DNA of 35,684 nucleotides from Desulfobulbaceae bacterium. GTDB taxonomy: Bacteria > Desulfobacterota > Desulfobulbia > Desulfobulbales > Desulfocapsaceae. Position 1 is the first letter of the stretch, and the number at the start of each line of letters is the position of its first letter. Made by a program: the position numbers and the translations under genes. The notes below the pieces were generated by a model, which was given only the letters and a program-made list of their open reading frames with translations, was not told where the DNA came from and searched no databases. Shown in pieces: positions 1-30,740 of this stretch. The stretch covers positions 1-35,684 of the forward strand of contig WBUQ01000034.1 of assembly GCA_008933635.1 (NCBI GenBank). The letters run 5' to 3'.

Positions 1-1443
1 GTTCAGCGCCAGCGCCTCCTTGATGGTCGTTTCCGTATACGGTTTCCAGGCCACCCCCGGGCCTCGCAGCGCCATGCTCGCCAGCAGGAAGGCGGCGACA
101 ACCAGGCCGGCAATGCCGACCCCGCCCTTTACCAGCGGAAATGCCCGGAAGCTGGCCTGGTTCCTGTCGATCCAGCCAAGATGCAGGCCGGCAGCCAGTG
201 CAACCGCGGCCAGCAGGATGGTCCCGCCGTCCCCGGGCAGAACCGGCCTGACGAAATGGGCCGCCATCCCGACCAGAACCCATCCCATCAGCTTTCTCAC
301 CCAGATCATCCAGCCGCCTGAACGGGGGAGTTTTTCCAGCTGTCCTGAGAACATTGCCAGGACAAAGAGCGGCAGGCCGAGTCCCAGGCTCAGGGTGAAA
401 AAGACCACGAAGCCGATCCACGGGCTGCCCATGCCGGCCACCCAGGTCAGCAGGCCGAGGACAAACGGGCCGATGCAGGGGGCGGCAACCACTCCGAGGG
501 TTATTCCCATGAACAGGCTGCCGAAATAGCCGGTGTACGATCTGGCCGCCGCCTGGGTGAGGCCGCTTGGCAGGCGCATCTCCCACAGTCCCAGCAGGCT
601 GGTGGCAAAAAAGACCAGAACCCCGGCGACAACGAGAAGAACGACCGGGTTCTGGAGCATCGCCCCCAAGAGGCCGCCGGTCAGCGATGCCGCCACTCCG
701 AGCAGCGAGTTGGTGAAGGCGAGACCAAGCAGGTAGCACAGGCCATGCACCGTCAGCCTGCCGCGTGCCTCGCCGCCCCTGGTGGCCTGACCGCCGAAGT
801 AGGAAACGGTGATGGGGATCATCGGGTAGACGCAGGGGGTGAGGTTGAGCGCCATGCCTCCGGCAAAAATCCCGACAAGCGTCAAGATCATCGCCCAGCC
901 ATGGAGCGGCCCCGGAGCGCTGGTTTCTCCCGCAGTCGCGGCCAGACCCGCCGGGACACTGGCAACGGGCAGACCGCGCGCCTGCCATTCGGGATACCCG
1001 TAAGGGTCGCGATAGACGTTGCTGTAACCGAGTCTGACGGCCACCCGGGCCGCCGAGTCACTGCGGACTCAGGTAAGGCCGGCTCAGTAGAAGACCAGGG
1101 TCCGGTTCTTGTCCGACCCGAGGAATTTCTCCAGTTCCGGGGCCTTGCGCCATCTCGCCCAGGCGGTCGGCTCCATCGGGAAATTGACCGCACCCTCGAG
1201 ATGGCCGGTCCTGAACTCCCACTCCTGGCGGGTATCGACCAGCAGGAGGCTGCCGGCGTCGTTGAGGTAGCGGCTGGCCAGTTCATCGGTGGTGATGATC
1301 TTGTAGTTCCCGTTTTTCCCTTCGGCAACGACATCATCCCAGGTCGCCTGTCTGGGAGCAACCGCCCGGTTGGTGAACCAGAGGGCGCCAATTGTCAGCA
1401 GTACCGCGATGAAGGCGAGAAACGTCGTTGTTCTGTCATGCAT
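1..1443 (-). CDS. Rhodanese-DsbD fusion selenoprotein with two in-frame UGA codons (partial, runs off window start)
   Basis: ATG at 1443 begins an N-terminal membrane anchor (about residues 5-22), then a rhodanese domain (VDTRQEWEFRTGHLEGAVNFP). The reading frame meets UGA at 1084-1086 (residue 120) and 1069-1071 (residue 125), giving FY-U-AGLT-U-VRSDSAARVAVRLGY. It then stays open to base 1 through the rhodanese C-terminus (GYPEW) and a DsbD/CcdA membrane domain (NLTPCVYPMIPITVSYFGG, later VVAAPCIGPFVLGLL), ending at what looks like the start of the C-terminal thioredoxin domain (KEALALN). The first UGA lies exactly where rhodanese has its catalytic Cys and the second at the sixth residue of the same loop; some rhodaneses have C-x4-C there. 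SECIS-like hairpins follow both. Role inferred: periplasmic sulfur or disulfide chemistry supplied with electrons across the membrane. A decayed gene is less likely because the frame is intact on both sides. Third gene of an ArsR-led operon. Confidence 0.85.
1036..1054 (-). promoter_or_regulatory. Candidate bacterial SECIS element for UGA 1069-1071
   Basis: On the minus strand GGCGGCC pairs with GGCCGTC (seven pairs, one G-U) around the loop CGGGT. The loop starts 21 nt after the second UGA and has G at its second position. The 5' arm shares bases with the 3' arm of the hairpin serving the first UGA, so the two hairpins cannot both be fully formed on one mRNA. Confidence 0.55.
1048..1080 (-). 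promoter_or_regulatory. Candidate bacterial SECIS element for UGA 1084-1086
   Basis: Reading the minus strand downstream of the UGA, CTGAGTC pairs with GACTCGG (seven pairs, one G-U) around the six-base loop CGCAGT. An outer GGCC/GGCC helix lies below a small internal loop. The apical loop starts 18 nt after the UGA and has G at its second position. This fits the known bacterial SECIS pattern: a short apical loop with an early G, roughly 16-37 nt past the UGA. Folding was done by eye. Confidence 0.6.
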
Positions 1444-1483: not shown

Positions 1484-1933
1484 CTACAGTTTTCCGCCGC
1501 GTTCCAGCTTTGACAGCAGGAACGTCGCGCCTCGCAGGGAGAGCCCGATTCTTCTGGCCAGTTCAGCCGCATCGAATGGCCCATATCTATCGTTCAGGGC
1601 GATGACCTCGTCCTCGAGCTCCTCGAACCAGTCCTCGAACAGCACCAGCAGCTCGGGATCGGTAATGGCCTTGAGCTGTTCGGACTGGGCAACCTTGTCC
1701 ACCAGGGTCTGGCACATCTGCGTCGGGTCGACACCTTCGCCCATGCACTCGGCCAGTCAGAGATGCACCATGCTGGAGATCTTGTCCTCCCCGGTTTCGC
1801 CGAGGAGATTCATGATGAAGCGGGTCCGGCCTTCCTCGCCGAGCAGCGGCAGCAGCTGTTTCAGGGCGATCGCGGCCTGATCTGCCGCGTCCTGCGGGTC
1901 CAGCCCGCTGAGTACCTTTTCTATTTCGCTCAT
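1484..1933 (-). CDS. Small selenoprotein of unknown function (149 aa, Sec at residue 59)
   Basis: ATG at 1933 opens a frame beginning MSEIEKVLSGLDPQDAADQ. It meets one in-frame UGA at 1757-1759, giving KISSMVHL-U-LAECMGEG, and then continues without interruption to TAG at 1484. The halves before and after the UGA look like one protein: both are acidic, helical and of similar codon use, and no ribosome-binding site is evident for a restart at the internal ATG (1744). A SECIS-like hairpin follows the UGA. Other cysteines are in LAEC and MCQTL. The C-terminal part (AAELARRIGLSLRGATFLLSKLERGGKL) resembles a helix-turn-helix-like bundle, but I do not recognise the family. It sits 29 bp after arsR and 40 bp before the Sec rhodanese-DsbD gene, so co-expression and a related redox role are likely. 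Split-gene calling would miss residues 1-58. Confidence 0.75.
1719..1747 (-). promoter_or_regulatory. Candidate bacterial SECIS element for UGA 1757-1759
   Basis: On the minus strand GGGCGA pairs with TCG-A-CCC (one bulged A) around the five-base loop AGGTG, which begins 20 nt after the UGA. A lower TGC/GCA helix extends the stem. The loop begins AGGU, as in the E. coli fdhF SECIS (recalled, not looked up). Of the three hairpins this is the closest to that classic element. Confidence 0.6.
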
Positions 1934-1962: not shown

Positions 1963-2337
1963 TTAAAAGGTTTTCCGGGTTGCCAGCAGATTCTGTGCCA
2001 CCGCGTTCAGATCCCGTACCGTCGCGAGAATGGCCGGATCGGACAGCTGGTAATAAATGAAGGGGCCGCTGCGCTCGATTGTCACCAGCAGGGTGCGCTT
2101 CAGCTCCTTGAGATGGTGCGAGACGAGCGGCTGTGAGAGGCCGAGTTCCTCGACGATGCTGCCCACCGCCTTCTTCCCCCGGCCGAGGCACAGCAGGATC
2201 CGCAGCCTGTTCTCGTCGGACAGGCTTTTTGCGAGAAAGGCAACCGATTGGAGTTCACCGTCGTGCAGGCCGGTCGTGCCGTCGGTGAGGGCTGAAGGGG
2301 GACTTTCGCCATCGTGCATCGCAATTTCTTCTGCCAT
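1963..2337 (-). CDS. ArsR/SmtB-family transcriptional repressor
   Basis: A 124-residue winged-helix protein. The core runs from about residue 32 (VAFLAKSLSDENRLRILLCL) through the recognition helix region (VEELGLSQPLVSHHLKELKR) to the wing (ERSGPFIYYQLSDP), the usual ArsR layout. Family members repress an operon until a metal(loid), thiol-reactive or redox signal releases them. No Cys pair of the CVC type found in arsenic sensors precedes the recognition helix; the only Cys is in LLCLGRG, so the signal cannot be named. The start at 2337 has AAGGGA about 5 nt upstream. It is the first gene of the selenoprotein operon, faces an AT-rich operator-like tract and a divergent nitroreductase, and probably represses itself and one or both flanks. 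Confidence 0.9.
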   Translation of the reverse strand: MAEEIAMHDGESPPSALTDGTTGLHDGELQSVAFLAKSLSDENRLRILLCLGRGKKAVGSIVEELGLSQPLVSHHLKELKRTLLVTIERSGPFIYYQLSDPAILATVRDLNAVAQNLLATRKTF

Positions 2338-2375
2338 GTGGTCCCTTCGTCAGGTGGGGTGAGCGTCAAGGATTA

Positions 2376-2429
2376 ACATATCAATAGATATTTATATGTC
2401 AATATATTGCCACGGCTTCCATATGTCAA
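2376..2429. promoter_or_regulatory. AT-rich operator/promoter region between arsR-type gene and nitroreductase
   Basis: In GC-rich surroundings this tract is strikingly AT-rich. ACATAT (2376-2381) and ATATGT (2394-2399) form an inverted repeat 24 bp long. ATATGTCAA occurs at 2394-2402 and again at 2421-2429. ArsR proteins bind imperfect AT-rich palindromes of this size, and the position just upstream of arsR fits autoregulation. The exact boxes are a guess. Confidence 0.5.
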
Positions 2430-4055: not shown

Positions 4056-6365
<2,310 letters not shown>

Positions 6366-6441: not shown

Positions 6442-6897
6442 TCATCGTTTTTCCATGCCGGCGCATTCCCGGCAGATCCCCCGCACCTCGACATGGGTGG
6501 CCTCGATCTCGCCGAAGGTGCCCACCGTTTCGGGGAGCGCGATATTGTCGAGGTCGTTGCTGTAGAAGTCGCGGGTGAGGCCGCATTGCCTGCAGACAAA
6601 ATGGTGGTGGATGTCCAGGTTGGCGTCGAAGCGGGTCCGTTCCCGGCTCGCCCCGAGGGTTGCGATCAGCCCGAGATCGTTCAGCAGCCAGAGCGTCCGG
6701 TAGACGGTGTCGAGCGAGACTGTCGGGATGCGCTCCCTGACAAGCCGGAAGACCTGATCGGCATCCGGATGATCCCCCGACTGGGCGACCTCGCGGAATA
6801 TCTCTATCCGCTGATGCGTCAGCTTGATCCCTTCGTCACGGCAGACCTGCTCGAAGTGCTGCATCCGATGTTCGACTTCTTTTTTTCTGATTTTCAT
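6442..6897 (-). CDS. Fur-family transcriptional regulator, PerR-like
   Basis: A 151-residue Fur-family repressor. The N-terminal winged helix includes KLTHQRIEIFREVAQSGDHPDADQVF and the DNA-contact segment TVSLDTVYRTLWLL. The C-terminal metal domain has HHHF (97-100) and two structural-zinc pairs, Cys102/Cys105 (CRQC) and Cys142/Cys145 (CREC). RFDANLDIHHHF is the sensing-metal region. PerR proteins sense peroxide by metal-catalysed oxidation of His residues and derepress katG-type genes. Assignment to PerR rather than Fur or Zur rests mainly on katG directly downstream on the same strand; residue patterns alone do not settle it. Confidence 0.85.
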   Translation of the reverse strand: MKIRKKEVEHRMQHFEQVCRDEGIKLTHQRIEIFREVAQSGDHPDADQVFRLVRERIPTVSLDTVYRTLWLLNDLGLIATLGASRERTRFDANLDIHHHFVCRQCGLTRDFYSNDLDNIALPETVGTFGEIEATHVEVRGICRECAGMEKR

Positions 6898-6925: not shown

Positions 6926-7667
6926 TACCTGCATGCTAACCACCATCTGCAGAGTGGTCAATAGCTGCTCTGTCGATTTATTGTTCAGCTTTGTGCAGAT
7001 CATCACATTGATATTTGGTCGTAAAATTCGCCGCAGACGCCTTTCGTCGAAAGCGGTACATGCCGTAAGCCAAAGGAATATTTCGCCAAAGATAACGCAA
7101 TTCCTGTGACAGGCGTGGAGAGGTTTTAAAAGTATTGGTGATCGATAAGGAGAAGAGGTTGCCCATCTTCTCCAAGATGGAGAACCTTCCGCGCCAACAA
7201 CCCAATCCCTGAAGGTCCTTTTTGTCTGCCGTATTCGTATAAATTTTCCTGCTGGCTTTGGGCCTTAGCCAGACTATTGCCGCAGAGAAAATTAGATTGA
7301 GAAATTTTCCTGTATGTGACCAAATACATAATTATGCTTACCTCCAGGTTTCAGCCAGCGGGTATGGGACAGCTGCACAGGGCAGCAACCCGCGCAAACC
7401 GGCCGGTCCTGCACATTCAGGGTGATGGGTGCGGCCTGCACGGCAATCGTCAACACATGCTGATCCCGTCAGTTGCGCGCCGGTGCGAGTCCACATCCGG
7501 GGGTGCCCTGGGCGCCCTCCTTCGCGGAAATGCCGGCAGGCACTAAGAATTACCTGATGTAGTGCAGGTATCTCGCCGTTTCAGGCCGTCTCTGGTCCGG
7601 ATTGTCGACGGGCTGGGATCTGAAGCAAGCGGAAAATCAACAATCGCGGAAAACTGCCGGCTCCTCG
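6926..7667. other. Intergenic stretch with no convincing gene
   Basis: The part up to about 7330 is AT-richer than its surroundings. It holds a hairpin at 7157-7186 (GGTT, then CCATCTT/AAGATGG around CTCC, then AACC) and two short overlapping minus-strand frames (6978-7205 and 7126-7329) whose products resemble nothing I know. The part from 7340 to 7545 is GC-rich with many short complementary segments, as in a structured RNA, but I cannot fit it to a known class. It ends at the presumed start region of the downstream phospholipid synthase gene. Confidence 0.4.
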
Positions 7668-8831
7668 ATGCGCACAGTCCTCTTTACAGCTCACAACCGC
7701 CTGTCCATTCTCCACAGTGGCGGCGAATATTTTCCCGCACTGATCGAAGCGATCGACGCCGCGCGGGTCGAAATCTATCTGGAGACCTACATCTTTTCCC
7801 TCGACGACGTGGGTACGGTCGTCCGGGACGCCTTGAAACGGGCCGCTTCCCGCGGGATCTCCGTGCACGTCATCACCGACTGGCTCGGTACGGGGCACGT
7901 GCGCGGGAAGATGCTCGCAGACGATCTGGTCTCGGCAGGGGTTGAGCATCACAGCTTCAACCCATGGTTCCGGCACGGGATCGCGCGGACCCACAGGAAA
8001 ATCTGCGTCGTCGACGGCACAGTCGCTTTCGTTGGCGGCATCAATATCATCAGCGACTATCGCAACGACGACCCAGACCATGACGAACTGATCGCGCCGC
8101 GCTGGGATTTCGCCGTACGCGCGGAGGGGCCGCTGGTCGCGCATGTTCAGCGCATCATGCAGCTGCAGTGGCTGCGTACCGGCAGACTCGGACTGATATC
8201 GCGCATTCAGCGTCTGCGTGAAGGCCGCATCAGGCCCGGACGGGTGGTCGAAAATTCCGGGATGGCGGGTTTTGTGGTGCGCGACAACCTGCGCAACCGC
8301 CGCACGATTCAGCGCTCATATCAGCGCGCGCTGGGTTTATCACGGCACAGCGTCTATATCGCCAATCCCTATTTTGCGCCGGCGCTCAGATTCTGCAGGG
8401 CTCTCGCCCACGCGGTCGAGCGGGGTGTGGACGTGTCCATTCTGATCGGGGTCGGGGAATTCCGGGTGCAGGACGCTGTGGCGCAATCCTTCTACCGCCG
8501 GTTGCTCTCAAAAGGAATCAGGCTGTACGAGTACCGCAAGACGCAGCTGCATGCGAAGGTCGCCGTCATCGACGATGACTGGGCGACCATTGGCTCGAGC
8601 AATGTCGACGGCATCAGCCTCTTTATCAATCAGGAGGCCAATGTGGTGGTGCGCGACGCCGCTTTTGCCAGAGACCTGCGGACGTCTATAGAAGCGGCCA
8701 TCGCGGAGAGCGTGGAAATCCGCCTGGAGGACTTTGCCAGCCGACCCTGGTACAAACGCTGGCTGTATGACGCCGTCTTCGTCGTGTACAGAGGGCTGAT
8801 GCGGATAGTGACTTTAGGCGATTACACATGA
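7668..8831 (+). CDS. clsB: Cardiolipin synthase ClsB-type phospholipase D family protein
   Basis: A 387-residue enzyme with two PLD (HKD) motifs: THRKICVVDGTVAFVGGIN and LHAKVAVIDDDWATIGSSNVD. Each supplies the His, Lys and Asp of the phosphatidyl-transfer site. The N-terminus (RLSILHSGGEYFPALIEAIDAARVEIYLETYIF) and overall size match ClsB rather than ClsA, which carries N-terminal membrane helices. ClsB makes cardiolipin from phosphatidylglycerol at the inner membrane and can also make phosphatidylglycerol. ATG 7668 is chosen because homologs start about here; an in-frame TTG at 7602 would add 22 unrelated residues. Neither start has a strong ribosome-binding site. A terminator hairpin follows the gene. 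Confidence 0.85.
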   Translation: MRTVLFTAHNRLSILHSGGEYFPALIEAIDAARVEIYLETYIFSLDDVGTVVRDALKRAASRGISVHVITDWLGTGHVRGKMLADDLVSAGVEHHSFNPWFRHGIARTHRKICVVDGTVAFVGGINIISDYRNDDPDHDELIAPRWDFAVRAEGPLVAHVQRIMQLQWLRTGRLGLISRIQRLREGRIRPGRVVENSGMAGFVVRDNLRNRRTIQRSYQRALGLSRHSVYIANPYFAPALRFCRALAHAVERGVDVSILIGVGEFRVQDAVAQSFYRRLLSKGIRLYEYRKTQLHAKVAVIDDDWATIGSSNVDGISLFINQEANVVVRDAAFARDLRTSIEAAIAESVEIRLEDFASRPWYKRWLYDAVFVVYRGLMRIVTLGDYT

Positions 8832-19214: not shown

Positions 19215-20651
19215 TTAAAAGAGGCGCAGCAGAAAGGCGAAGTTGTCCACGATGGTCAGATTGCGGTCCGGATCGTCGAAGACCGAGAGGACACAATAAA
19301 AGAGCATGACGCAGAATGGGTTGACAATATTCCGCTTGAACCACGGCATATCCTGACGTTGTTTTTTCTCGAACAGCTGGGAAAGGCCGATGGCCGCCCC
19401 CAGCACCATCCCGTAAAACATATAGACATGAAACGACACGAGGGCGTCCCACGGCCCGCGCTGGATGATCTCATGGATATCGCGGAGATAATGGTACAGC
19501 ACGTTGCCAAATCCGGCAGCGGACATGGTCGCGAAAAACAGGCGCAGCCGCGGCCGCTTTTTCCAGTAGCGGAGAAAGGCCGGGTAGAAAAAGTTGTCGA
19601 CCAGCAACTCTTTGAAATAATAGTAATATCTGTTCCAGAACTCGGCGATGGTGGCGGAACGCAGGGGGTTGCAGGTGTTGCGGAGGGCGTTGTAGCCGGC
19701 CATCCGGCAGACGGCGACAATGCCGTGCCCCCACACCGAAAAGGCCACCAGTTTGTAGAAAAAGTTGGCCACCAGGGCCAGCCAGTTGGTGTACCACGGA
19801 TAGGGATCGCCCGGCCTGCCATGCAGTACCTCGCTCAAGGACGGGATCGCCAGTGAAAGGTCGATCCCGAGAAACGAGTCGCCGGGTTGACCGTACAATA
19901 TCTGTCTCAGCACGCGCTGCAGCAGCATCAGGAGCAGGGCCCAGTAGAGCAGCTTGATGCCTTTCAGCTGGCTGACGGCAAGTTGCGCCGGCGTTTTGGC
20001 CTCGATCTTGCGCAGGTAGGCGGCGCCTTTGGGGAAAGGGGTGTTGTATCCGCCCCAGAAGGGGAGGAAATGGCCGGTCTGCAGGGCCAGCGGCGCAGTA
20101 TCTTTGGCGTTGCGGTCCAAGAGCGCGTAGTTGAAAAACCACAGATACTTGCCGAAAACGATGGCAAAGGACCACACGATCACCGCAGCCGGACCGGCAG
20201 GAGGCAGCTGGGCGGCGAGGACGATCAGGGCGCAGTACCCCCCCAGCAGATTCCTCACCGGCCGCCGACCGAGCCAATCGTCCTTCCATTGCCTCACTGC
20301 ATGGTAATACAGGGCGAAGGCGCCCAGGACCGCCGCGACGAGTAACGGCTTGAACAGCACCCCGCCCGGAAGTCCCTGTCCGCCTCCCGGCCAGACAGGA
20401 AAATTGGACCATCCGCCCAGCGCAAAGGTGCCGAAAGTGGCGGCAACCAGCAGCATGCCCCGGTATTGCGGCAGCAGGGTCATAGCCAGCAGGATCGCCG
20501 AGGTATGAAGCCAGCTGTCGGTAGAGAGGGACAGCCCGAAGGAGAAGACGACCAGCAGCGCCATCTTGCCGGCAATAGTCTGGGCAAAGTCGACGATGGC
20601 GGGGCAGGTGTCGATGGGCGGGATGATTTTGAACGAGGCCGGCCTAGACAT
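19215..20651 (-). CDS. MBOAT-family membrane acyltransferase (DltB-like, divergent)
   Basis: A 478-residue polytopic membrane protein. Many hydrophobic helices are visible, beginning with FAQTIAGKMALLVVFSFGLSL. The segment EFWNRYYYYFKELLVDNFFYPAFLRYW corresponds to the MBOAT motif with DFW and an amphipathic re-entrant helix. The likely catalytic His is about residue 387 in GNVLYHYLRD. The usual WHG form is absent, so this is a distant subgroup. MBOATs move acyl groups from a carrier to an extracytoplasmic polymer; DltB does so from the alanyl carrier protein. ATG 20651 overlaps the end of the adenylation gene by 8 bp, showing tight co-translation. No DltD homolog is adjacent. Confidence 0.85.
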   Translation of the reverse strand: MSRPASFKIIPPIDTCPAIVDFAQTIAGKMALLVVFSFGLSLSTDSWLHTSAILLAMTLLPQYRGMLLVAATFGTFALGGWSNFPVWPGGGQGLPGGVLFKPLLVAAVLGAFALYYHAVRQWKDDWLGRRPVRNLLGGYCALIVLAAQLPPAGPAAVIVWSFAIVFGKYLWFFNYALLDRNAKDTAPLALQTGHFLPFWGGYNTPFPKGAAYLRKIEAKTPAQLAVSQLKGIKLLYWALLLMLLQRVLRQILYGQPGDSFLGIDLSLAIPSLSEVLHGRPGDPYPWYTNWLALVANFFYKLVAFSVWGHGIVAVCRMAGYNALRNTCNPLRSATIAEFWNRYYYYFKELLVDNFFYPAFLRYWKKRPRLRLFFATMSAAGFGNVLYHYLRDIHEIIQRGPWDALVSFHVYMFYGMVLGAAIGLSQLFEKKQRQDMPWFKRNIVNPFCVMLFYCVLSVFDDPDRNLTIVDNFAFLLRLF

Positions 20652-22224
20652 GCGGCTGCTTCTCTGCCTCAAGGACGGCGGCCAGGGCCTTGCGGTCCAC
20701 TTTGCCGTTCAGGTTGAGGGGCAGCTGCTCCAGGCAGACGATCCGGCGCGGGATCATATAGGCCTGGAGACGCTGCCTGAGCCCATCCTTGACGGCCTTC
20801 TGCTCCAGGGTGCTGTCGGTGACGAAGGCGACCAGCCCCTGGGCGGTTCCGTGCAGGACCGGCCAGGCGATCACCGCGACGGCATCGCTGCCGCAGACGG
20901 CGCGGAGATGAAACTCCACATCCTCCAGCTCGACCCGCTGGCCCAGCACCTTGACCTGATTGTCGACCCGGCCGAGATAGTGGAATATCCCGTCCTCATC
21001 CTGGTATGACAGGTCGCCGGTGAGGTACCAGGTGGTCTCCCCGAGCTCGGGGTGCACCAGCCGCGGATAGCGCCGGGCGGTGAGTTCCGGATTGCGCCAG
21101 TATCCGGCCGAGACCTGGGGGCCGGCCACGGCAAGCTCCCCGATCTCCCCGTTGGCAAGAAAATTGTTCCCGCTGTCGACAATGGCGGCATGCATGCCGG
21201 GATAGGGTCTGCCGATGGCGACAACGCCCCTGTTCGGGGTGATGGCATGCGGCGCACGGTATGGCTGCCACAGGCAATCCACCGTCACCTCGGTGGGGCC
21301 GTACAGGTTGTCGATGCGGCTGTTGGGCGCAGCCTCCTGCCAGGCGTCGGCCGAGTCTCTGGGCAGGGGCTCGCCGGCAAACAACGAAATCCGCAGCGAG
21401 GGGAAGATGCCGGGCCTGAGCAGCCGCATCCCCTTGAGAAACGAGATCACCGATGGCACGGCAAACCACACGGTCAGCTCCTGCTTTCTGATGAATTCGG
21501 CCGGCGCCATGGCCATGTTCTCCGGCACCACATGGACCGAGGCCCCCGCCCCCCAGGCCATGAACAGGTCGAAGACGATGTGGTCGAAGGTGAGCTCGGA
21601 CTGCTGGGACAGCCGGTCATCCGCCGTCAGCCGGTAGCGCTCCTGGGACACCGACAGGAAATGGGCGACGTTGGCAACGGTGACCATCACCCCCTTCGGC
21701 TCGCCGGTGGTGCCGGAGGTGAACAGGATGTAGGCGATCTCCTCGCGCGGCGTCTGCGCCGGGGGGATCGGGGCATACCCGGCCAGGGTCTGACGGCCGC
21801 GGATCGCCAACGTGCCGGCCGTATGATCGTCCAGGCAGGGGGCGATCAGCAGCGGCGGGCAGCAGGCCAGGACGGTATCGGTCAGGGCCCTGCAGCCGGC
21901 GCTGTCCAGAATGATGGCGCTCAGCTGCGAATTCCTGATGATGGTCGCCAGCCGGCCTTCAGGGTATTTCGGATTCAACGGCACAAAGGTGACGCCGGCC
22001 CAGCAGGCGGAGAGTATCCCGGCCATTGCCTCCACGGAGCGGCTGGCCAGGATCCCGACACGCTCGACCGGGCCGTTGCCGGGATCCACGAGCAGGGAGG
22101 CGATGGTCGCAGCCAGATCGCCAAGTTCCTGATACGAATGATATGTACCAGCGACAACGAGCGCCGGCAGGGTGGGGTTGTGCAGATAATGCCCGTAGAA
22201 GGGCAGGGCTAGACCTTGGCGCAT
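20644..22224 (-). CDS. Stand-alone amino-acid adenylation enzyme (DltA-like)
   Basis: A 526-residue ANL-superfamily ligase with the NRPS adenylation-domain motifs in order: YILFTSGTTGEPKG (A3), LTFDHIVFD (A4), NLYGPTEVTVD (A5), GRPYPGM, YLTGDLSYQDEDG (A7), GRVDNQVKVLGQRVELEDVE (A8) and NLNGKVDRKAL with the catalytic Lys (A10). The Asp in FDHIVFD matches the position that binds the alpha-amino group in amino-acid-activating domains, so an amino acid is the likely substrate; which one is unknown. There are no condensation or carrier domains. It would charge the 85-residue carrier protein two genes downstream. ATG 22224 is used; an upstream TTG (22242) is possible and neither has a clear ribosome-binding site. 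Confidence 0.88.
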   Translation of the reverse strand: MRQGLALPFYGHYLHNPTLPALVVAGTYHSYQELGDLAATIASLLVDPGNGPVERVGILASRSVEAMAGILSACWAGVTFVPLNPKYPEGRLATIIRNSQLSAIILDSAGCRALTDTVLACCPPLLIAPCLDDHTAGTLAIRGRQTLAGYAPIPPAQTPREEIAYILFTSGTTGEPKGVMVTVANVAHFLSVSQERYRLTADDRLSQQSELTFDHIVFDLFMAWGAGASVHVVPENMAMAPAEFIRKQELTVWFAVPSVISFLKGMRLLRPGIFPSLRISLFAGEPLPRDSADAWQEAAPNSRIDNLYGPTEVTVDCLWQPYRAPHAITPNRGVVAIGRPYPGMHAAIVDSGNNFLANGEIGELAVAGPQVSAGYWRNPELTARRYPRLVHPELGETTWYLTGDLSYQDEDGIFHYLGRVDNQVKVLGQRVELEDVEFHLRAVCGSDAVAVIAWPVLHGTAQGLVAFVTDSTLEQKAVKDGLRQRLQAYMIPRRIVCLEQLPLNLNGKVDRKALAAVLEAEKQPHV

Positions 22225-22579
22225 AGAGGTGTTCTCGTGCAAGATGGCTGTTCAGCGCGAACGGCTGGAGGTATCCTGGGTATGGACGTACCTGCTCAGG
22301 TTGCGCAGCCTGTCAGCCTGCGGGCTGCCAGGGGATGAGGCGCAGCATGTGCCGGGCTCGGCATGTCTGCTGCGGCGGTCCCGACAAACCGGCTGCTGCC
22401 GGGGCCGTGCCAGGAACGCTCCAAGATGTATCTTCTCGGGGGCGATCTTGCAATAATTTATTCGTTCAGCCGCAATGGATGCCCTGGCCTCACAAGCACC
22501 CTGAATCCGGTGCCGGTTGTGCTTCGTGGCTGCTGCTTGCTGAATCGAATTGCAGAGCCTGGCGGACACAACTAACTCA
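22225..22579. other. Non-coding stretch upstream of the adenylation gene
   Basis: No believable gene is seen; a 142-codon minus-strand frame across it has an amino-acid composition unlike a real protein. It should hold the promoter of the adenylation/MBOAT/carrier operon near 22230-22300, but I cannot point to clear hexamers. It ends at a transposase remnant. Confidence 0.4.
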
Positions 22580-22657
22580 TTAGAAGAACAGCTCGATTTT
22601 CCAGCGTTTTTTATACAGCTCGGCAATGACGTTGGTTCTGGGGAAACGTATCGGCAA
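22580..22657 (-). pseudogene. IS4-type transposase remnant
   Basis: On the minus strand, just behind the DUF1566 stop, one frame reads TNVIAELYKKRWKIELFF and then stops. This matches the conserved IS4-superfamily segment around the catalytic Glu (IAELY-x-x-RW-x-IELFFKWIK), but everything before and after is missing. It marks an old insertion that was later deleted. Only about 26 codons are recognisable. Confidence 0.55.
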
Positions 22658-22680
22658 GAAACCGGCAGGCCGGCTGTCAA

Positions 22681-23709
22681 TCACGCCAGATCCGCATCGC
22701 AAACCGCCCAGACGGCGAAGGTCTTCCCGGCCTTATGGCCGACCCCGCACGCCCCTTTCTCCAGATACAGGACCCAGGCCCACTCGGTTTCGAAATAACT
22801 GGTCGTAGCCGACCAATACCCTTCCTGGAGACCGGTGAAGGGGTGATCCGACGGCAGGGCCGGGCGTGACTCGGCACAGTCGACCAAGGATTCCAGCTCG
22901 TTGATGTTCGGCAGCCGCCAGCTGCTGCTTCCGGCAAAGCAGATTCGATTCAATTCCCGGACCGCGGAGAGCGCCTCTCCCCAGCTGACAGGGCCTGATG
23001 CAAGGTCGGCCCGGCGAGTCCAGCAGAGGCTGGTCAGCCGATCCTTCACCGTCGATTCCCCGCTTTCAAACCTTGGTTCGGGCCATGGCCGTCCCAACTC
23101 GTACTCGCCGTCCTGGCCGCTTCCAGCACAAGGGATGATCTCTCCCCCGCCATCGTAGCACACAGTCTGGCCGGTTCGTGGCAACAGGCCATTCTGTTCT
23201 CCCCGCACCGGCCAGAACAGGCAATCCTGATCCTTGCGTCCGTAAAACATCCGCGCCCCTTCCAGGTGGACGTACCAGGCATAGGCCGGATCGATGGCCG
23301 CCGAGGTGGAAGTCCAGTACCAGCCGAGAAAGGGATTGATGAACGGATGCCCGCCAGGCAAAGCGGGATTTTTCGCCTGATAGTTCATCAGGCTGCGCAT
23401 CTCGGCACGGTTGGGCAGTCGCCAGTCGCTCCACCCAGCGAAGCGGTCGCGATTCAACGACGAGATTGCGGCAAGGGCCTCCGGCCAGGTGACCGGGAAC
23501 TCGTTGATGTTGGCGTCTCGGCTCCAGACCAGGCCGGTGAGCCGGTCAAGCACCGTCTCGTTTCGAACGATCAGGCGAGGCTCCGGCCAGGGGGCCCCCA
23601 AACGGTATTCGCCGTCCTGACAGCTGCCGGCGCAGGGAATCTCTCTCCCTGTTCCGTCGTAGCATCGATTCTGCCCGGTCGCCGGTATCATGTCATGCCG
23701 TCCGTACAT
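22681..23709 (-). CDS. DUF1566 (Lcl C-terminal domain) protein with two tandem repeats
   Basis: A 342-residue protein made of two copies of one unit, about residues 8-170 and 172-342. Each opens with TGQ-x-x-CYD...IPCAG-x-x-QDGEY-x-LG and PWPEPRF, followed by DRLT-x-L-W, WPEAL or WGEAL, FAG-x-S-x-WRLPN-x-x-E, a YW-(T/S)-(S/A)-T segment and an LE-G strand. This is the DUF1566/Lcl_C beta-rich fold, common in deltaproteobacteria and usually extracellular or periplasmic. Here no signal peptide or lipobox is visible at the chosen start (ATG 23709, AAGGGG about 12 nt upstream), so the N-terminus or location is doubtful. Paired Cys in each copy could form disulfides. Function unknown. Confidence 0.85.
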   Translation of the reverse strand: MYGRHDMIPATGQNRCYDGTGREIPCAGSCQDGEYRLGAPWPEPRLIVRNETVLDRLTGLVWSRDANINEFPVTWPEALAAISSLNRDRFAGWSDWRLPNRAEMRSLMNYQAKNPALPGGHPFINPFLGWYWTSTSAAIDPAYAWYVHLEGARMFYGRKDQDCLFWPVRGEQNGLLPRTGQTVCYDGGGEIIPCAGSGQDGEYELGRPWPEPRFESGESTVKDRLTSLCWTRRADLASGPVSWGEALSAVRELNRICFAGSSSWRLPNINELESLVDCAESRPALPSDHPFTGLQEGYWSATTSYFETEWAWVLYLEKGACGVGHKAGKTFAVWAVCDADLA

Positions 23710-23966
23710 GCTATGCCCCTTGTATACAACGAGAGCGTGCCAGGTCTGTATTGACTTTGCAGAGAAGTGGTTCCAGGATTTTGAACAGGCAGGTACGCGG
23801 AAACATTGCTTTCAGCAGCGGTCAGGCAACTGACAGCGGATGGGAAAGGGAACTGGACCGGTAGCGTGTGATTCCCGGAGGCGTCCACACTCTCGCTCAA
23901 CGGCCGCTGGCATGAGGAGGGGCCGTCGCTGAAAGGCGACCGCACCACTTCATGCCAGGTCGTGGT
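23710..23966. other. Gap between DUF1566 gene and nrfD-like gene
   Basis: Both neighbours are on the minus strand. There is no gene. A small hairpin (GTCGC/GCGAC around 23925-23940) lies close behind the nrfD-like stop and may act as its 3' end, but it has no T-run. Confidence 0.35.
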
Positions 23967-25154
23967 TTATTTCCTGCGCATTTTCTCGAGGCTCAGCGAA
24001 TTGAAGATCAGCTCGCCAGCGAGAAAGGCCATCAGGAAAAAGCTGACCGAACCGACGATCATCATGTACTCGTGCAGACTGGGGCTGTAGGAGTAGAGTT
24101 CTGGGTAGCCGTAGAGATTGTACTGGTGAAAATGGGGGATGAGCTGGCCGACGATGATCAGGTCGTAAAAGGTGACCGCTATCCCGACCAGGGTGCTGAA
24201 GCTGGCGAGGGCCAGGAGGCCGATTTTCCTTCCGCCGCCGCTGAATGCCAGCAGTGCGAGAGGCAGGAGGATTGCCAGCACAATCTCACCCAGCCAGAAA
24301 TTCATGGCGAAATCGCCGCGAACCAGGAGCCGCATCGCTTCCGGGTTGTCGGCGAACTTGCTGGAGAAGCCACCCAGGGCTTTCATCGCCGCGAAGCAGC
24401 CGATCCCGATCAGCAGCACCACGGTCAGTTTGAACAGCGGGTTCATGGCATTCAGGGATTCTGCGTCGAGGCGCCGGTTCTGCAGCCAGCTGCTGAGCCA
24501 GGTGAACAGGATTATGCCGCAGCAGGCGGAGAGGGTGGAGACGGTGAGGAAGAAGACCGGCATGTAGTTTTCCGCCCAGAAACCACGCGATCCGAGCAGG
24601 GCCATGTCCGAGTTCATGTTCAGGTTGCCACAGGTGATCGCAATCAGGGCTCCCAGCGCAAATCCCCGGGCAGTGCGGTTCCTGCCCATGAGCAGGAACA
24701 TGAAGTTGAAGGCCATCAGCAGCAGAAAGAGGGTGTAGATAGAACTCTTCCACCAGATATTTGACAGCGGATTGGGAGAGAGAAAGCTGTAAATCGCCAT
24801 GTTCCAGGGATTTTCAATTTCAAGGCCGATGGACATCAACCCCGCGGCCATGGCGATGATGGCCAGGAAGACCGTGCGGTTGACGAGCGGCGCAAGGGTC
24901 GTGATGCCAAACACCTGCCCGAGGGAGGAGATGATGCATATTCCGGTGGAGAGACAGGCAAAAAAGACATACGGGGTGATGAGGATGCCCCACGGTACTT
25001 CCCGCGTGGTGCCGAAAACGTGATCGTGCCCGACGAAGAGCGCGTGAATGGCAAAAGATATGCCGATACCGGTGAAAAGGGCGAGCAGCGCTATCGGCAC
25101 AAAGAGGTTTTTGCCTGGAATGTCCTGGTCACTTGCTTTGCTGAAGAATATCAT
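23967..25154 (-). CDS. NrfD/PsrC-family quinone-interacting membrane protein (orphan)
   Basis: A 395-residue polytopic protein. Hydrophobic helices include LFVPIALLALFTGIGISFAI, YVFFACLSTGICIISSLG, IYTLFLLLMAFNFMFLLMG and a C-terminal MMIVGSVSFFLMAFLAGELIF. The pattern PWGILITPYVFFACLSTGICII is typical of NrfD-type subunits, which hold the quinol site of polysulfide, nitrite or Hmc-type complexes but bind no heme. These normally travel with an iron-sulfur subunit and a catalytic subunit; none is next to it here. ATG 25154 with AGGA upstream is preferred over an upstream start at 25223 that adds a charged segment. Its partner must be encoded elsewhere, or it is a leftover of a complex. Confidence 0.88.
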   Translation of the reverse strand: MIFFSKASDQDIPGKNLFVPIALLALFTGIGISFAIHALFVGHDHVFGTTREVPWGILITPYVFFACLSTGICIISSLGQVFGITTLAPLVNRTVFLAIIAMAAGLMSIGLEIENPWNMAIYSFLSPNPLSNIWWKSSIYTLFLLLMAFNFMFLLMGRNRTARGFALGALIAITCGNLNMNSDMALLGSRGFWAENYMPVFFLTVSTLSACCGIILFTWLSSWLQNRRLDAESLNAMNPLFKLTVVLLIGIGCFAAMKALGGFSSKFADNPEAMRLLVRGDFAMNFWLGEIVLAILLPLALLAFSGGGRKIGLLALASFSTLVGIAVTFYDLIIVGQLIPHFHQYNLYGYPELYSYSPSLHEYMMIVGSVSFFLMAFLAGELIFNSLSLEKMRRK

Positions 25155-25524
25155 ACGCGCAGTCCTGTTGTTTTTCTCGGTTAACCAACTAGACGACAAT
25201 CCTGTTTTCCATATAGATGTCAAAGGGCTGTATACGACGGTGTCATAGTATCTGCTGCTGCGCGCAAAATCAATGAAACTCTAAAGCAATTGTGACGAAA
25301 ATTCGCTACGCTCGTCAGGAGAGGCGGATGGCGTACAAATGATGCCGAGGCTCGGAATACAGTATGAGGACGTGCTGCTGCTGGTGTATGCAGGGGATGA
25401 GTTGTTTGATGGTAACTGAAAAAAAACCTCTGGTTCTCAGCCTCTGCCCGGGATCAGAGGCAGCTCGGCCAGGGGCATGCACCCGGAGCCGGGATTTCAC
25501 CTTCACAGAGGCAAGAGCAATGCG
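25155..25524. other. Divergent intergenic region between nrfD-like and LOG-family genes
   Basis: No gene is seen. It must hold promoters for both directions. The feature that stands out is the repeated CCTCTG/CAGAGG hairpin beside an A8 run at 25419-25461. Confidence 0.4.
25419..25461 (-). terminator. Possible leader terminator/attenuator ahead of the nrfD-like gene
   Basis: On the minus strand GCCTCTG pairs with CAGAGGC (loop ATCCCGGG). A second CAGAGG copy (25427-25432 on plus as CCTCTG) directly precedes eight Ts (25419-25426). The first arm can pair with either copy, giving two exclusive structures. No minus-strand gene lies upstream to be terminated, so it would act in the leader of the nrfD-like transcript. 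Confidence 0.35.
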
Positions 25525-26079
25525 ATGAAATCGATCTGCGTGTTCCTGGGATCAAGCGCCGGTACGGATCCGGCCCACATGGAAGCCGCCGCCGCTCTCG
25601 GCCGCGAACTGGCGGAACGGGGCATGATCTGCGTCTATGGCGGTTCCCGCACCGGCCTGATGAACCGGCTTGCCGAGTGCGCCCTCGCGGCGGGAGGGGA
25701 GGTTGTCGGGGTGACCGTCCAGGTCCTGAAGGACAAGGAAGAATTCCACAGGGGACTGACCCGGCTTCATGTTGTGCCGACCATGCATCAACGCAAGACC
25801 ATGATGATCGACCTGGCGGACGGGTTTGTCGCTCTGCCGGGCGGCATCGGCACCTGGGACGAGTTCTTCGAGGTCATCACCCTCAGGCAGCTCGGATTCC
25901 ACGCCAAGCCCTGCGGCCTGCTGGATGTGAACGGTTTCTATCAGCCCCTGCTGCAGATGCTGGACAAGGCCGAGAAGGAAGGGCTCATGAAGCGGTCGGC
26001 ACGGAAGGCGATAGTCGTCTCTTCCGACCCGGCGGAGATGCTCGATCTGTTGATCGCAGCAGAAAAGCGGGCGCCTTAG
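25525..26079 (+). CDS. LOG-family protein (TIGR00730-type, cytokinin riboside phosphoribohydrolase-like)
   Basis: A 184-residue Rossmann-fold protein. KSICVFLGSSAGTDP at the start, ICVYGGSRTGLMNRLA, and FVALPGGIGTWDEFFEVIT with the PGG-x-GT-x-x-E signature identify the LOG family. LOG enzymes hydrolyse N-glycosidic bonds of nucleoside 5'-monophosphates; in bacteria the physiological substrate is often a damaged or ordinary NMP rather than a cytokinin. ATG 25525 is chosen since the family begins with this strand; an earlier in-frame ATG (25477) adds residues unrelated to it. It stands alone between the divergent nrfD-like gene and a convergent O-acetylation pair. Confidence 0.9.
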   Translation: MKSICVFLGSSAGTDPAHMEAAAALGRELAERGMICVYGGSRTGLMNRLAECALAAGGEVVGVTVQVLKDKEEFHRGLTRLHVVPTMHQRKTMMIDLADGFVALPGGIGTWDEFFEVITLRQLGFHAKPCGLLDVNGFYQPLLQMLDKAEKEGLMKRSARKAIVVSSDPAEMLDLLIAAEKRAP

Positions 26080-26170
26080 GAAGGGCCTCGTTTCAGCGGT
26101 CCGGCGGGGCCGGTTGCGGATGTGTGCGAAGCGGCCCGTTTCTGCGCCCTGCCTGTCGCTTCCCTCGCGG

Positions 26171-27373
26171 CTATCGGGCCATGTTGGTGGTTTCGCGGGG
26201 GTGGCTTGCGATGTAGGCCGAACGCCGTGCGCGGAAGTCGCCGAGATGGCGTTCGATGGTCGCGCCGGTCAGTTCAACGCCGAAGTCGTCTCCTTCCTCC
26301 TGCCGGCCGGTGGCGAAGAGGTGCCCGAGGATCAGCTCGCCGACCTCGCTGCGATAGTGGGAATGCTCCCAGTAATACCGCATGTTTTCGCGTCCCGTCG
26401 TCTGGGGGATGTCCTCGCCGGTGATCCGGTTGAAGCCGGAAAAGTCGACGAGGCGGATATCGCAGCCCTGGCTCCTGCGGGCATCGGCCACTGCCGTCAG
26501 CGACCGTTTCCAGTCGTCGAGGGCGTCCCATTTCCCCGCCCAGTAGGACAGCTCGGCCAGGGCGTGGACCGGCTGGAGGTACAGCCGGAATGCGGTGCCT
26601 TCCCGGCAGTACTCGTCCGTCACCTTGTCCAGCAGCCCGAGGGTCGCCTCGACATCCGGCGGGTCGGCCAGCGGCTTGTTTTTCTGCATCACCTTGCCAA
26701 ACGCTGCGGCCGTCCCGCCATTCTCGCGCATGACGTACTCCATGCACTGCGAGGAACGCTGGCCGTAGGTGGCCAGCAGCGGTCTGCACTCCTGTTCGGC
26801 AGAACCGGAGAGAATCTTCAGGGAATCCCAGAGCATGTCCATGGACGCCGAACGCTTGAGGTTCAGCAGCGTCCGCCGGAAGGGGTAGGACCGGTCCTGC
26901 GCCACCAGCGCCGGGATCAGGTCGGTATTGCCGGTCTCTTCCCTGAACTGATCGCCGTAGTCCAGCCCCCAGACGACGATCTCGGGACGCTGGAAGACGC
27001 TCGTGTGGCGAAGCATCCTGACCGCGTCGCCGAGCGATGCCCCCTGGATGGCGAGATTGAAGACGCGCTTGCCGGCAAACACCGGCACGTCCGCCGGCAG
27101 GCCGATCTCCGTCCGCGAGCTGCCAAGGTAGACCACCTCGGGACGGTAGCGGTACGCCGCATAGGTTTTTCCCCACGGCATGATCTTCTGGTGGGCGGAG
27201 CGCAGCCGCTGAAGATGTTTCGTGTCCCACTGATGGATGAGATACGGGTCGACCAGGTAGTTGAGCGTCACCGTGACGACCAGCACGACGAGGACGGTCA
27301 GGCCGGCTGCCCGGAAATACCTGTTCGGGCCGTCATGGGCGGATGGGGCGGTCATGTGGTCAGAACTGGGCAT
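26171..27373 (-). CDS. AlgJ/DltD-like SGNH-fold protein, partner of an MBOAT O-acetyltransferase
   Basis: A 400-residue protein with one N-terminal membrane anchor (AAGLTVLVVLVVTVTLNYLVDP) and an extracytoplasmic domain. VVYLGSSRTEIGL carries the nucleophile Ser of block I in this fold; NLAIQGASLGD, VVWGLDYGDQF and the C-terminal YYWEHSHYRSEVG (acid plus His) follow. Such proteins accept acetyl groups from, or assist, an AlgI-type MBOAT and modify a secreted polysaccharide. ATG 27373 overlaps the end of the AlgI-like gene by 14 bp; a second ATG at 27355 lies just past that stop and is also possible. The gene is second in a two-gene operon and convergent with the LOG gene. Confidence 0.82.
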   Translation of the reverse strand: MPSSDHMTAPSAHDGPNRYFRAAGLTVLVVLVVTVTLNYLVDPYLIHQWDTKHLQRLRSAHQKIMPWGKTYAAYRYRPEVVYLGSSRTEIGLPADVPVFAGKRVFNLAIQGASLGDAVRMLRHTSVFQRPEIVVWGLDYGDQFREETGNTDLIPALVAQDRSYPFRRTLLNLKRSASMDMLWDSLKILSGSAEQECRPLLATYGQRSSQCMEYVMRENGGTAAAFGKVMQKNKPLADPPDVEATLGLLDKVTDEYCREGTAFRLYLQPVHALAELSYWAGKWDALDDWKRSLTAVADARRSQGCDIRLVDFSGFNRITGEDIPQTTGRENMRYYWEHSHYRSEVGELILGHLFATGRQEEGDDFGVELTGATIERHLGDFRARRSAYIASHPRETTNMAR

Positions 27374-29077: not shown

Positions 29078-30649
29078 TCATTGTCCCCTGTCCCTGATGC
29101 CGAGCCGGGTGGCGAGGTTGTGCAGGTTGCTCCGGTTCATGCCGAGGGCACGGGCCGCGGCCGCCCAGTTGCCCCCGTGCTTTGCCAGCGCGGAGCGGAT
29201 CAGCTCTGTCTGGAAGCGCTTGACCTCCTCGCGCAGCGACATCCTCTCCGGGGCGGATCGGGTCGCGACCGTCATTTCCGCGGGTTGGACGTACATCGCC
29301 GAGCCGATATCGCCGGCGAGGTGGCCGGGCTCGATCTGCAGTCCCCCAGGCTGGCCGGCTCCCTGCGATGCCTTCAGGACCGCGCGGGAGATGATGTTCT
29401 CCAGTTCGCGGACATTGCCCGGCCAGCTGTAGCGGGCCAGCAGCTGCAGGGCGGCCGGGCTGATCCGCGCCTCCCCGAGGCCGAGCCTTCTCCTCGTGCG
29501 GTCGAGGAAAAAGCCCGCCAGCAGGGGGATGTCGTCTTTGCGCTCGCGCAGCGGCGGGACGCGGATCGGGTAGACATTGAGCCGGTGGTACAGGTCCGAG
29601 CGGAATCGGCCGGCCCGCACTTCCGCCTCCAGGTCGCGGTTGGTTGCGGCCAGCAGCCGCACGTTGACGTGGCCGGTCTTCTCCGACCCGATGCGCTGGA
29701 TCTCCCCCTCCTGGATGGTCCTCAGGATCTTCGCCTGGACCGGCAGCGACAGCTCGCCGATTTCATCGAGGAAGAGCGTTCCCTCGTCGGCGAGCTCGAA
29801 CTTGCCGGCCCGGTCCTGGGTCGCCCCGGTGAAGGCGCCCTTCGTATGGCCGAACAGCTCGCTTTCGGCGAGGGATTCGGGGAGGGCGGCGCAGTTGAGG
29901 TACAGCATCGCCCGGTCGCGACGCCTCGAATGCCGGTGGATAGCCCTCGCCACCAGTTCCTTGCCCACCCCGGTCTCGCCCAGGATCAGGATGGTGAAGT
30001 CCGACTTCGCGCAGAGCTCGATCTCCCGGCGCAGGTTGCCTGTCGCCGCGCTCTGGCCGACGATTTCCGAACCGCGCTGAGTGGACAGATCCTGCATCAG
30101 GTCGGAGACGATCAGCCCCTGGCGCTCGGCCTTGTCCTCCAGCGCCTTCAGCAGGGTGGCCAGGTGCATCTGCGCCGCGGCAATGGCACTGACGGCCTTC
30201 AGATACTCTCCGGGCAGGTTGTCGAACGCCCCGGCATCGAGCGCGTCGGCGGTCAGCACCCCGATCAGCGAGTCGTTGATATACAGCGGGCAGCCGAGAC
30301 AGGCGTGGATATGGTGCAGGCGGTGAGGGTCCTCGGCCAGCATGCCGTCGAAGGGGTCGGGCAGAGGGCTGTCCCTGGAGAACAGCACAGGTTCATTGGA
30401 ATTGCAGATTATATCGAGCCGCGGATGTTCCTTGCGGAAGTAGGTGCGGCCCATGGCATCCGGCGTCAACCCCCTGGCGGCGATCGGGATCAGTTTATCC
30501 TTCTCGGCCTGCAGCAGCGTCGCGGCGTCGTAAGGGATGGCGCGATGCAGGGCAGCCAGCAGACGTTCGTACCGGTCTTCGGCCCGCATCTCGGCGGTCA
30601 GGTCGAGGGCGATCGCGGCGAGGGTGTTGAGCATGTCCATGGTTGTCAT
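29078..30649 (-). CDS. norR: NorR, nitric-oxide-sensing sigma-54 transcriptional activator
   Basis: A 523-residue enhancer-binding protein in three parts. The N-terminal GAF domain (MDMLNTLAAIALDLTAEM onward) keeps the residues proposed as ligands of the NO-sensing iron in E. coli NorR: Arg in EHPRLD, Asp in LPDPFDG, Cys in HACLG and Asp in LTADALD. The AAA+ domain has Walker A GETGVGKE, the sigma-54 contact loop GAFTGA, and Walker B LFLDEIGE. The C-terminal Fis-type helix-turn-helix is GNWAAAARALGMNRSNLHNLATRLGI. It is divergent from the cupin-ferredoxin-flavodiiron operon and should activate it when NO binds. The start MTTMDML at 30649 matches homologs; an upstream in-frame ATG (30730) would run over the promoter region. 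Confidence 0.95.
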   Translation of the reverse strand: MTTMDMLNTLAAIALDLTAEMRAEDRYERLLAALHRAIPYDAATLLQAEKDKLIPIAARGLTPDAMGRTYFRKEHPRLDIICNSNEPVLFSRDSPLPDPFDGMLAEDPHRLHHIHACLGCPLYINDSLIGVLTADALDAGAFDNLPGEYLKAVSAIAAAQMHLATLLKALEDKAERQGLIVSDLMQDLSTQRGSEIVGQSAATGNLRREIELCAKSDFTILILGETGVGKELVARAIHRHSRRRDRAMLYLNCAALPESLAESELFGHTKGAFTGATQDRAGKFELADEGTLFLDEIGELSLPVQAKILRTIQEGEIQRIGSEKTGHVNVRLLAATNRDLEAEVRAGRFRSDLYHRLNVYPIRVPPLRERKDDIPLLAGFFLDRTRRRLGLGEARISPAALQLLARYSWPGNVRELENIISRAVLKASQGAGQPGGLQIEPGHLAGDIGSAMYVQPAEMTVATRSAPERMSLREEVKRFQTELIRSALAKHGGNWAAAARALGMNRSNLHNLATRLGIRDRGQ

Positions 30650-30653
30650 ATGT

Positions 30654-30698
30654 ACAACAATGTTGTGAGAATGAAAACAGAAATTTGTTGTCAGAATG
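30654..30698 (+). promoter_or_regulatory. Candidate NorR enhancer sites
   Basis: ACAACAATGTTGT (30654-30666) is a palindrome. TGTTGT-x-AGAATG occurs at 30661-30673 and again at 30686-30698, a direct repeat 25 bp apart. These lie 43-87 bp before the -24 element, a normal place for activator sites. They do not match the GT-N7-AC core of E. coli NorR boxes, so assignment rests on repetition and position. Confidence 0.4.
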
Positions 30699-30740
30699 GA
30701 TACGCTGAATTGATGTATCTGAAAATGCATGAAAAAATAT

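Follow-up and report, generated by a model that had tools for sequence, protein, structure and literature searches.

The window, by which we mean the whole stretch of DNA analysed here (35,684 nt from a Desulfobulbaceae bacterium), opens with a reverse-strand reading frame that is interrupted by two UGA codons, both in the active-site loop of a rhodanese domain fused to a DsbD-type membrane domain. Do these UGAs encode selenocysteine (Sec), and is a rhodanese loop with Sec at both ends a new design? Translated with TGA read as Sec (U), positions 1-1443 yield 481 residues with two recoded codons and no further stop, so that the frame indeed crosses both UGAs and stays open to base 1, as the first-pass annotation had described. 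The recoded residues are U120 (UGA at 1086-1084) and U125 (UGA at 1071-1069) in the context FYUAGLTUVRSDSAARVAV; we take U120 to occupy the first, catalytic position in the rhodanese loop. The features concerned are as follows.

1..1443, reverse strand: tsoB, truncated by the contig end (TGA=U translation; NF045694; Pfam domains)
1084..1086, reverse strand: first in-frame UGA (UGA1, residue U120), TGA in 102 of 103 sequences
1069..1071, reverse strand: second in-frame UGA (UGA2, residue U125, sixth residue of the loop), TGA in 102 of 103 sequences

The encoded protein starts with a membrane helix, followed by the rhodanese domain that bears U120 and U125 and then by the membrane domain of DsbD type; the C-terminal thioredoxin domain is absent. 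Both halves of the proposed rhodanese-DsbD fusion are recognized by Pfam, Rhodanese (PF00581) with 52.5 bits (cut-off 22.2) and DsbD_TM (PF02683) with 136.5 bits (cut-off 27.1). Since base 1 of the window is the terminus of contig C195, tsoB is truncated at residue 481. The NCBIfam profile NF045694 (‘rhodanese/DsbD fusion-like selenoprotein TsoB’) matches the window copy over profile positions 2-471 of 572 with 800.3 bits; we attribute the shortfall from the cut-off of 805 to the absence of the last 101 profile positions. The genome has a complete sibling TsoB of 585 aa on another contig, C158, which reaches 1018.9 bits and carries a C-terminal thioredoxin-like domain (PF13899, 59.8 bits). When the genome was searched for the C-terminal part that the window gene lacks, only weak matches (33.6 and 22 bits) turned up besides the sibling. 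The best overall explanation, which we hold with high confidence, is that the window gene belongs to a tso locus (from ‘three selenoprotein operon’) and is its tsoB, truncated at the contig end and with Sec at both loop positions.

The double-Sec rhodanese/DsbD protein thus appears to be genuine, and it is not new, as the family has already been named TsoB. The annotators had known of no such design in the literature; yet a 2026 review (PMC13188914) tabulates TsoB as UxxxxU with 2 Sec, a feature present in the window copy as U120 and U125. It also lists TsoA, TsoC, TsoX and TsoY beside TsoB, describes the Tso operon and credits it to Haft and Tolstoy 2025, mSystems. Our literature search on TsoB produced only this review, and no function for TsoB was found in the searchable literature.

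How well the two UGAs are conserved was assessed in two genome collections. A scan of genome contigs provided 108 confirmed loci, of which the best 80 were taken; one of them (L095) starts past the loop and was left out, and the remaining 79, together with the sibling locus (L111) and the window, made a set of 81 sequences, 80 with TGA/TGA and one (L109) with TGC/TGT. In a phylum-wide search of 395 genomes, 58 had a match with E no higher than 1e-60 and 22 had one above the cut-off; among the 23 matches above the cut-off, 22 have two TGAs and one (in G278), which is the same place as L109 judging from its coordinates and the length of its contig, has no stop. Weaker phylum-wide matches cover mostly the DsbD part alone and are uninformative on the loop. 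With the 22 phylum-wide loci (L114-L135) added, the loop codons in 103 sequences, window and sibling included, are TGA/TGA in 102, TGC/TGT in one and mixed in none; the two collections overlap, so that the 103 are not independent and comprise 92 distinct 121-nt stretches, and the searches were seeded with a UGA/UGA query or the TsoB profile, so distant Cys forms are possibly under-counted. At the level of these sequences, the UGAs at the first and sixth rhodanese positions appear as jointly conserved codons. Two chance nonsense mutations, which the first-pass annotation had judged an implausible coincidence, are accordingly an unlikely origin, and the homologues to which it had looked for corroboration have UGA at both positions or, in one case, Cys at both. 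In 55 aligned TsoB proteins both loop residues are invariant (Sec; Cys in L109), and so are C204 and C323 of the DsbD membrane domain and C493 and C496 (CxxC) of the thioredoxin domain.

The L109 gene (5001-6734) is the sole TsoB found with Cys at both positions, and its genome holds a UGA/UGA copy as well. A search to about 5 kb from it revealed no tso neighbours; a gene at 7540-8151 (reverse strand) of the same locus resembles, by eye and unscanned, an ArsM-type methyltransferase.

A second and independent line of evidence for recoding comes from the RNA level. In 155 conserved fourfold-degenerate codon columns, wobble entropy is lowest at codons 132, 134 and 126 (0.21, 0.21 and 0.40 bits; median 1.63), so that the three most constrained columns all lie directly 3′ of the UGAs. 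Codon 133 (Arg, CGN codons) ends in G or T only, 50 and 37 times. Two hairpins are predicted here.

1037..1053, reverse strand: hairpin B, putative bSECIS, 6-bp stem and loop CGGGU, with compensatory changes; predicted by RNAalifold as well
1055..1070, reverse strand: hairpin A, possibly a second element, with a 6-nt loop closed by a 5-bp stem in which two bases of UGA2 take part

The loop of hairpin B starts 21 nt past UGA2 and 36 nt past UGA1, and its stem takes in the third positions of codons 132 and 134, the two most constrained of the 155 columns. Its pairs are formed in 99.4% of cells (90 distinct 57-nt stretches), and two of them change in a compensatory and synonymous manner: pair 36-48, which joins two Ala-codon wobbles, occurs as GC 64, AU 13, CG 6, GU 3, UA 1, UG 1 and other 2 times, and pair 39-45 as CG 87 and UA 3 times. 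Of 91 distinct stretches, 86 have the loop sequence CGGGU or CGUGU. RNAalifold, when unaided, predicts hairpin B alone, with six pairs and a consensus energy of −10.35 kcal/mol. In the published bSECIS model (PMC13188914), a stem of 4-16 bp carries a loop of 3-9 nt that begins 16-37 nt away from the UGA and has G within its first two positions (pattern G then G/U), and the energy is −7.5 kcal/mol or lower. Hairpin B agrees with this model in spacing (21/36 nt), loop, stem and energy (that of the RNAalifold consensus), yet it is present in only 27 of 91 single-sequence 75-nt folds.

Shuffled controls were used to judge the covariation. Hairpins A and B together have 24 double-change cells versus 3.3 in shuffles, a value reached in 0 of 500, where cells are sequences rather than events and the shuffles ignore relatedness. 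The covariation score and the percentage paired were likewise reached by 0 of 500 shuffles and the further pair types by 5 of 500, while the number of double-change pairs (2) was reached in 43 of 500; sliding the partner strand gave 0 to 9 double-change cells. When synonymous codons were drawn at random from each gene, hairpin B kept 4.73 of its 6 pairs versus 5.97 in the natural sequences, and the stretch as a whole folds more stably than its random-codon versions, by a modest margin (mean z −1.6). Minimum-energy 75-nt folds of the 91 distinct sequences contain hairpin A in 52 cases, a rival stem C in 42 and hairpin B in the 27 mentioned; with folding restricted to the sequence 3′ of UGA2, hairpin B appears in 48 of 91. 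Paired cells number 543/546 in hairpin B, 441/455 in hairpin A and 583/637 in stem C, and double-change cells 25 in hairpin B and none in hairpin A or stem C. We conclude that the RNA just behind the UGAs is constrained and is predicted to pair like a bSECIS.

In the literature searched we found nothing on how a bSECIS is shared or divided between two UGAs that lie fifteen bases from each other; Haft and Tolstoy 2025 may discuss it. One bSECIS could serve both codons, with SelB delivering Sec twice from the same hairpin and with the two sites gained or lost together. The joint pattern (UGA/UGA in 102 of 103 sequences, Cys/Cys in the remaining one, mixed pairs in none) is consistent with this arrangement, which we consider plausible but somewhat doubtful. 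The arrangement that competes with it, and with it only, gives each UGA its own bSECIS, hairpin A acting on UGA1 and hairpin B on UGA2; we put its chances at about even. The hairpin-to-UGA spacings would then be alike, as the loop of hairpin A starts 18 nt past UGA1 and that of hairpin B 21 nt past UGA2. Hairpin A is paired in 96.9% of cells, the codon 126 wobble ranks third of 155 in constraint, 4.85 of 5 pairs are kept versus 3.59 with random synonymous codons, the hairpin is the one found in 52 of 91 75-nt folds, and its second loop position is G, as the published model asks. On the other hand, no compensatory change was found in hairpin A in the same stretches that show them in hairpin B, RNAalifold omits it, and its third loop position is not limited to G or U. 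The close spacing of the UGAs makes the gene a convenient natural test of the reach of a bacterial SECIS and of whether one is able to act twice. Raw sequence alone thus supports a conserved protein with Sec at both ends of the rhodanese loop.

The neighbourhood of tsoB adds further support to Sec at both positions, since the adjacent gene encodes TsoA, another named selenoprotein family. Upstream of tsoB, and on the same strand, tsoA and tsoR adjoin it, both above their cut-offs.

1484..1933, reverse strand: tsoA, LULAxC-motif selenoprotein of 149 aa (one-TGA translation; NF045695, 215.5 bits, cut-off 170)
1757..1759, reverse strand: in-frame UGA of tsoA (U59 of LULAEC), TGA in 67 of 68 sequences with tsoA found
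1724..1743, reverse strand: putative tsoA bSECIS with the consensus loop AGGUG some 20 nt past the UGA
1963..2337, reverse strand: tsoR, regulator of ArsR/SmtB type (NF045707, 156.8 bits, cut-off 115)
2373..2402, no strand assigned: AT-rich inverted repeat ahead of tsoR, seen in the window, candidate TsoR operator

The tsoA hairpin is predicted by RNAalifold with a consensus energy of −7.35 kcal/mol (58 distinct sequences). Two wobbles in this gene are nearly invariant, that of Gly codon +8 (T in 56 of 58) and that of Val codon +9 (C in 58 of 58). The one exception at the tsoA Sec codon is AGA (Arg) in L049 (2446-2898), from a MAG that holds another tso locus (L041); in L096 (4043-4492) the Cys of LULAEC is replaced by Phe (TTC) and the UGA is kept. 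A structure model of TsoA (mean pLDDT 73.6, pTM 0.39) had no match in the PDB with E ≤ 0.001. Many of its weak top matches are winged-helix DNA-binding proteins, with about 45 aligned columns in an unspecified part of TsoA, and we claim no function from them. AT-rich repeats comparable to the candidate operator precede many, not all, of 67 tsoR genes.

Among the 79 loop-covering loci of the first scan (from the best 80 of 108), 60 have at least 2500 bases upstream, with TsoA in 37/60 and TsoR in 40/60; at the thresholds used, then, some TsoB genes lack a recognisable TsoA or TsoR neighbour. At least 700 bases downstream are available in 68 loci, 52 of which have TsoC, and the order R-A-B-C is seen in 28 of the 54 loci with both flanks. 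The sibling locus (contig C158 of the same genome, G000, 20000-26500) encodes TsoR and TsoA, assigned by similarity to the proteins of the window, then TsoB, two TsoC, a thioredoxin reductase (TIGR01292, 361.3 bits, cut-off 343.45) and TsoX (NF045809, 128.3 bits, cut-off 52). In the 103 sequences, whose flanks are in many cases short, a TrxB-like match lies close to 7 and a TsoX-like match close to 6. The TsoB proteins of window and sibling are 84.6% identical; the two loci may be paralogues, or a contig of a close relative may have strayed into the assembly.

Some other frames of the window were named by eye and are unscanned: on the reverse strand a KatG-like catalase-peroxidase (4056-6251) with a Fur/PerR-like regulator beside it (6442-6897), a NorR-type sigma-54 regulator (29078-30730), also on the reverse strand, and near the latter a flavodiiron-protein-like frame on the forward strand (31651-32841).

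What might such a protein do? DsbD draws electrons from a cytoplasmic protein of thioredoxin type and conducts them through its membrane domain to a thioredoxin domain. A structure model of TsoB (mean pLDDT 74.9, pTM 0.52) matches DsbD gamma and rhodanese structures, a profile search matches solved chains of DsbD gamma, CcdA and rhodanese, and hydropathy of the TsoB of Desulfoprunum benzoelyticum, a cultured relative (L033), places the first membrane helix at about residues 6-24. Most likely, TsoB would relay electrons of cytoplasmic thiols to a periplasmic diselenide centre. The membrane anchor would place the rhodanese domain in the periplasm, where it would stand in for the domain that DsbD normally has at its N-terminus; the membrane domain would take electrons from a cytoplasmic thioredoxin-like partner, perhaps from the thioredoxin reductase and TsoX of the sibling locus, and pass them to the periplasmic thioredoxin domain (WCxxC), which would reduce a U120/U125 diselenide. 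The reduced Sec pair could in turn reduce a periplasmic substrate of the sulfane-sulfur, selenium or metalloid kind, and TsoR would switch the operon on upon that substrate or stress. The details of this scheme (periplasmic rhodanese, electron relay, reduction by the Sec pair and response of TsoR) are tentative, with topology and substrate drawn from DsbD and the neighbouring genes.

As to the substrate, our first guess is sulfane sulfur, because the domain is a rhodanese, and the second a metalloid, because TsoR is of the ArsR type. That the Tso pathway handles a metalloid or metal (e.g. arsenic) instead of sulfane sulfur seems rather unlikely to us. Besides the ArsR/SmtB type of TsoR, the ArsM-like gene (by eye, unscanned) near the only Cys/Cys homologue would fit a metalloid. 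However, in an alignment of 67 TsoR sequences, which may lack N-terminal extensions, no conserved Cys pair was seen, a single column exceeds 20% Cys (25 of 67), and the usual substrate of rhodanese domains is sulfane sulfur, the one we prefer.

A rival reading takes the UGAs as true stops, the locus being either a pseudogene or a pair of genes for a short rhodanese protein and a separate DsbD protein made from an internal start. Under the standard code the frame does split accordingly, into a 166-aa frame ending at 1084 and a 348-aa frame starting at 1044. We regard this as very improbable and reject the pseudogene, because both UGAs are present in 102 of 103 sequences, the loop is conserved on either side of them and the sole change is to Cys/Cys; moreover, synonymous constraint and compensatory pairs directly 3′ of the UGAs are not expected of a decaying gene. 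Reassignment of UGA to tryptophan or another residue throughout the genome, under which the frame would equally stay open on read-through, can be dismissed as having almost no chance, given that UGA terminates 36 of the 99 tsoB frames whose end is reached (duplicates between the collections included), that the Cys homologue has Cys and not Trp at both positions, and that the genome has a tRNA-Sec with anticodon TCA.

Judged by profile scores, the genome encodes the genes for Sec synthesis and insertion, as the first-pass annotation had proposed to check: selA (538.7 bits, cut-off 22.8), selB (360.2 bits, cut-off 242.25), selD (370.1 bits, cut-off 125) and tRNA-Sec, the selC product (69 bits, gathering score 47), the last confirmed with its anticodon by ARAGORN. 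The selD gene (L112; G000 contig C131, 142559-143506) itself carries one in-frame TGA, in which it presumably resembles Sec-containing selenophosphate synthetases.

Among known systems, TsoB (NF045694) shares with the window gene the rhodanese/DsbD fusion, the UxxxxU loop with two Sec and the TsoA and TsoR neighbours, and the window copy differs from it in the lack of the last 101 profile positions at the contig end. With DsbD of the E. coli type (NF001419), TsoB has in common the membrane domain with two conserved Cys and, in complete copies, the CxxC thioredoxin domain, whereas at the N-terminus it carries a rhodanese domain with two Sec; the NF001419 cut-off of 330 is reached neither by the window protein (144 bits, residues 185-438) nor by the complete sibling (249 bits). 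The rhodanese-related selenoproteins (NF041203; forms 1-4 of the review) likewise have a rhodanese domain with Sec, and the window protein scores 32.3 bits against NF041203 (cut-off 115). In the table of the review, forms 1-4 have one Sec each and appear with no mention of DsbD (PMC13188914), whereas TsoB combines two Sec with DsbD.
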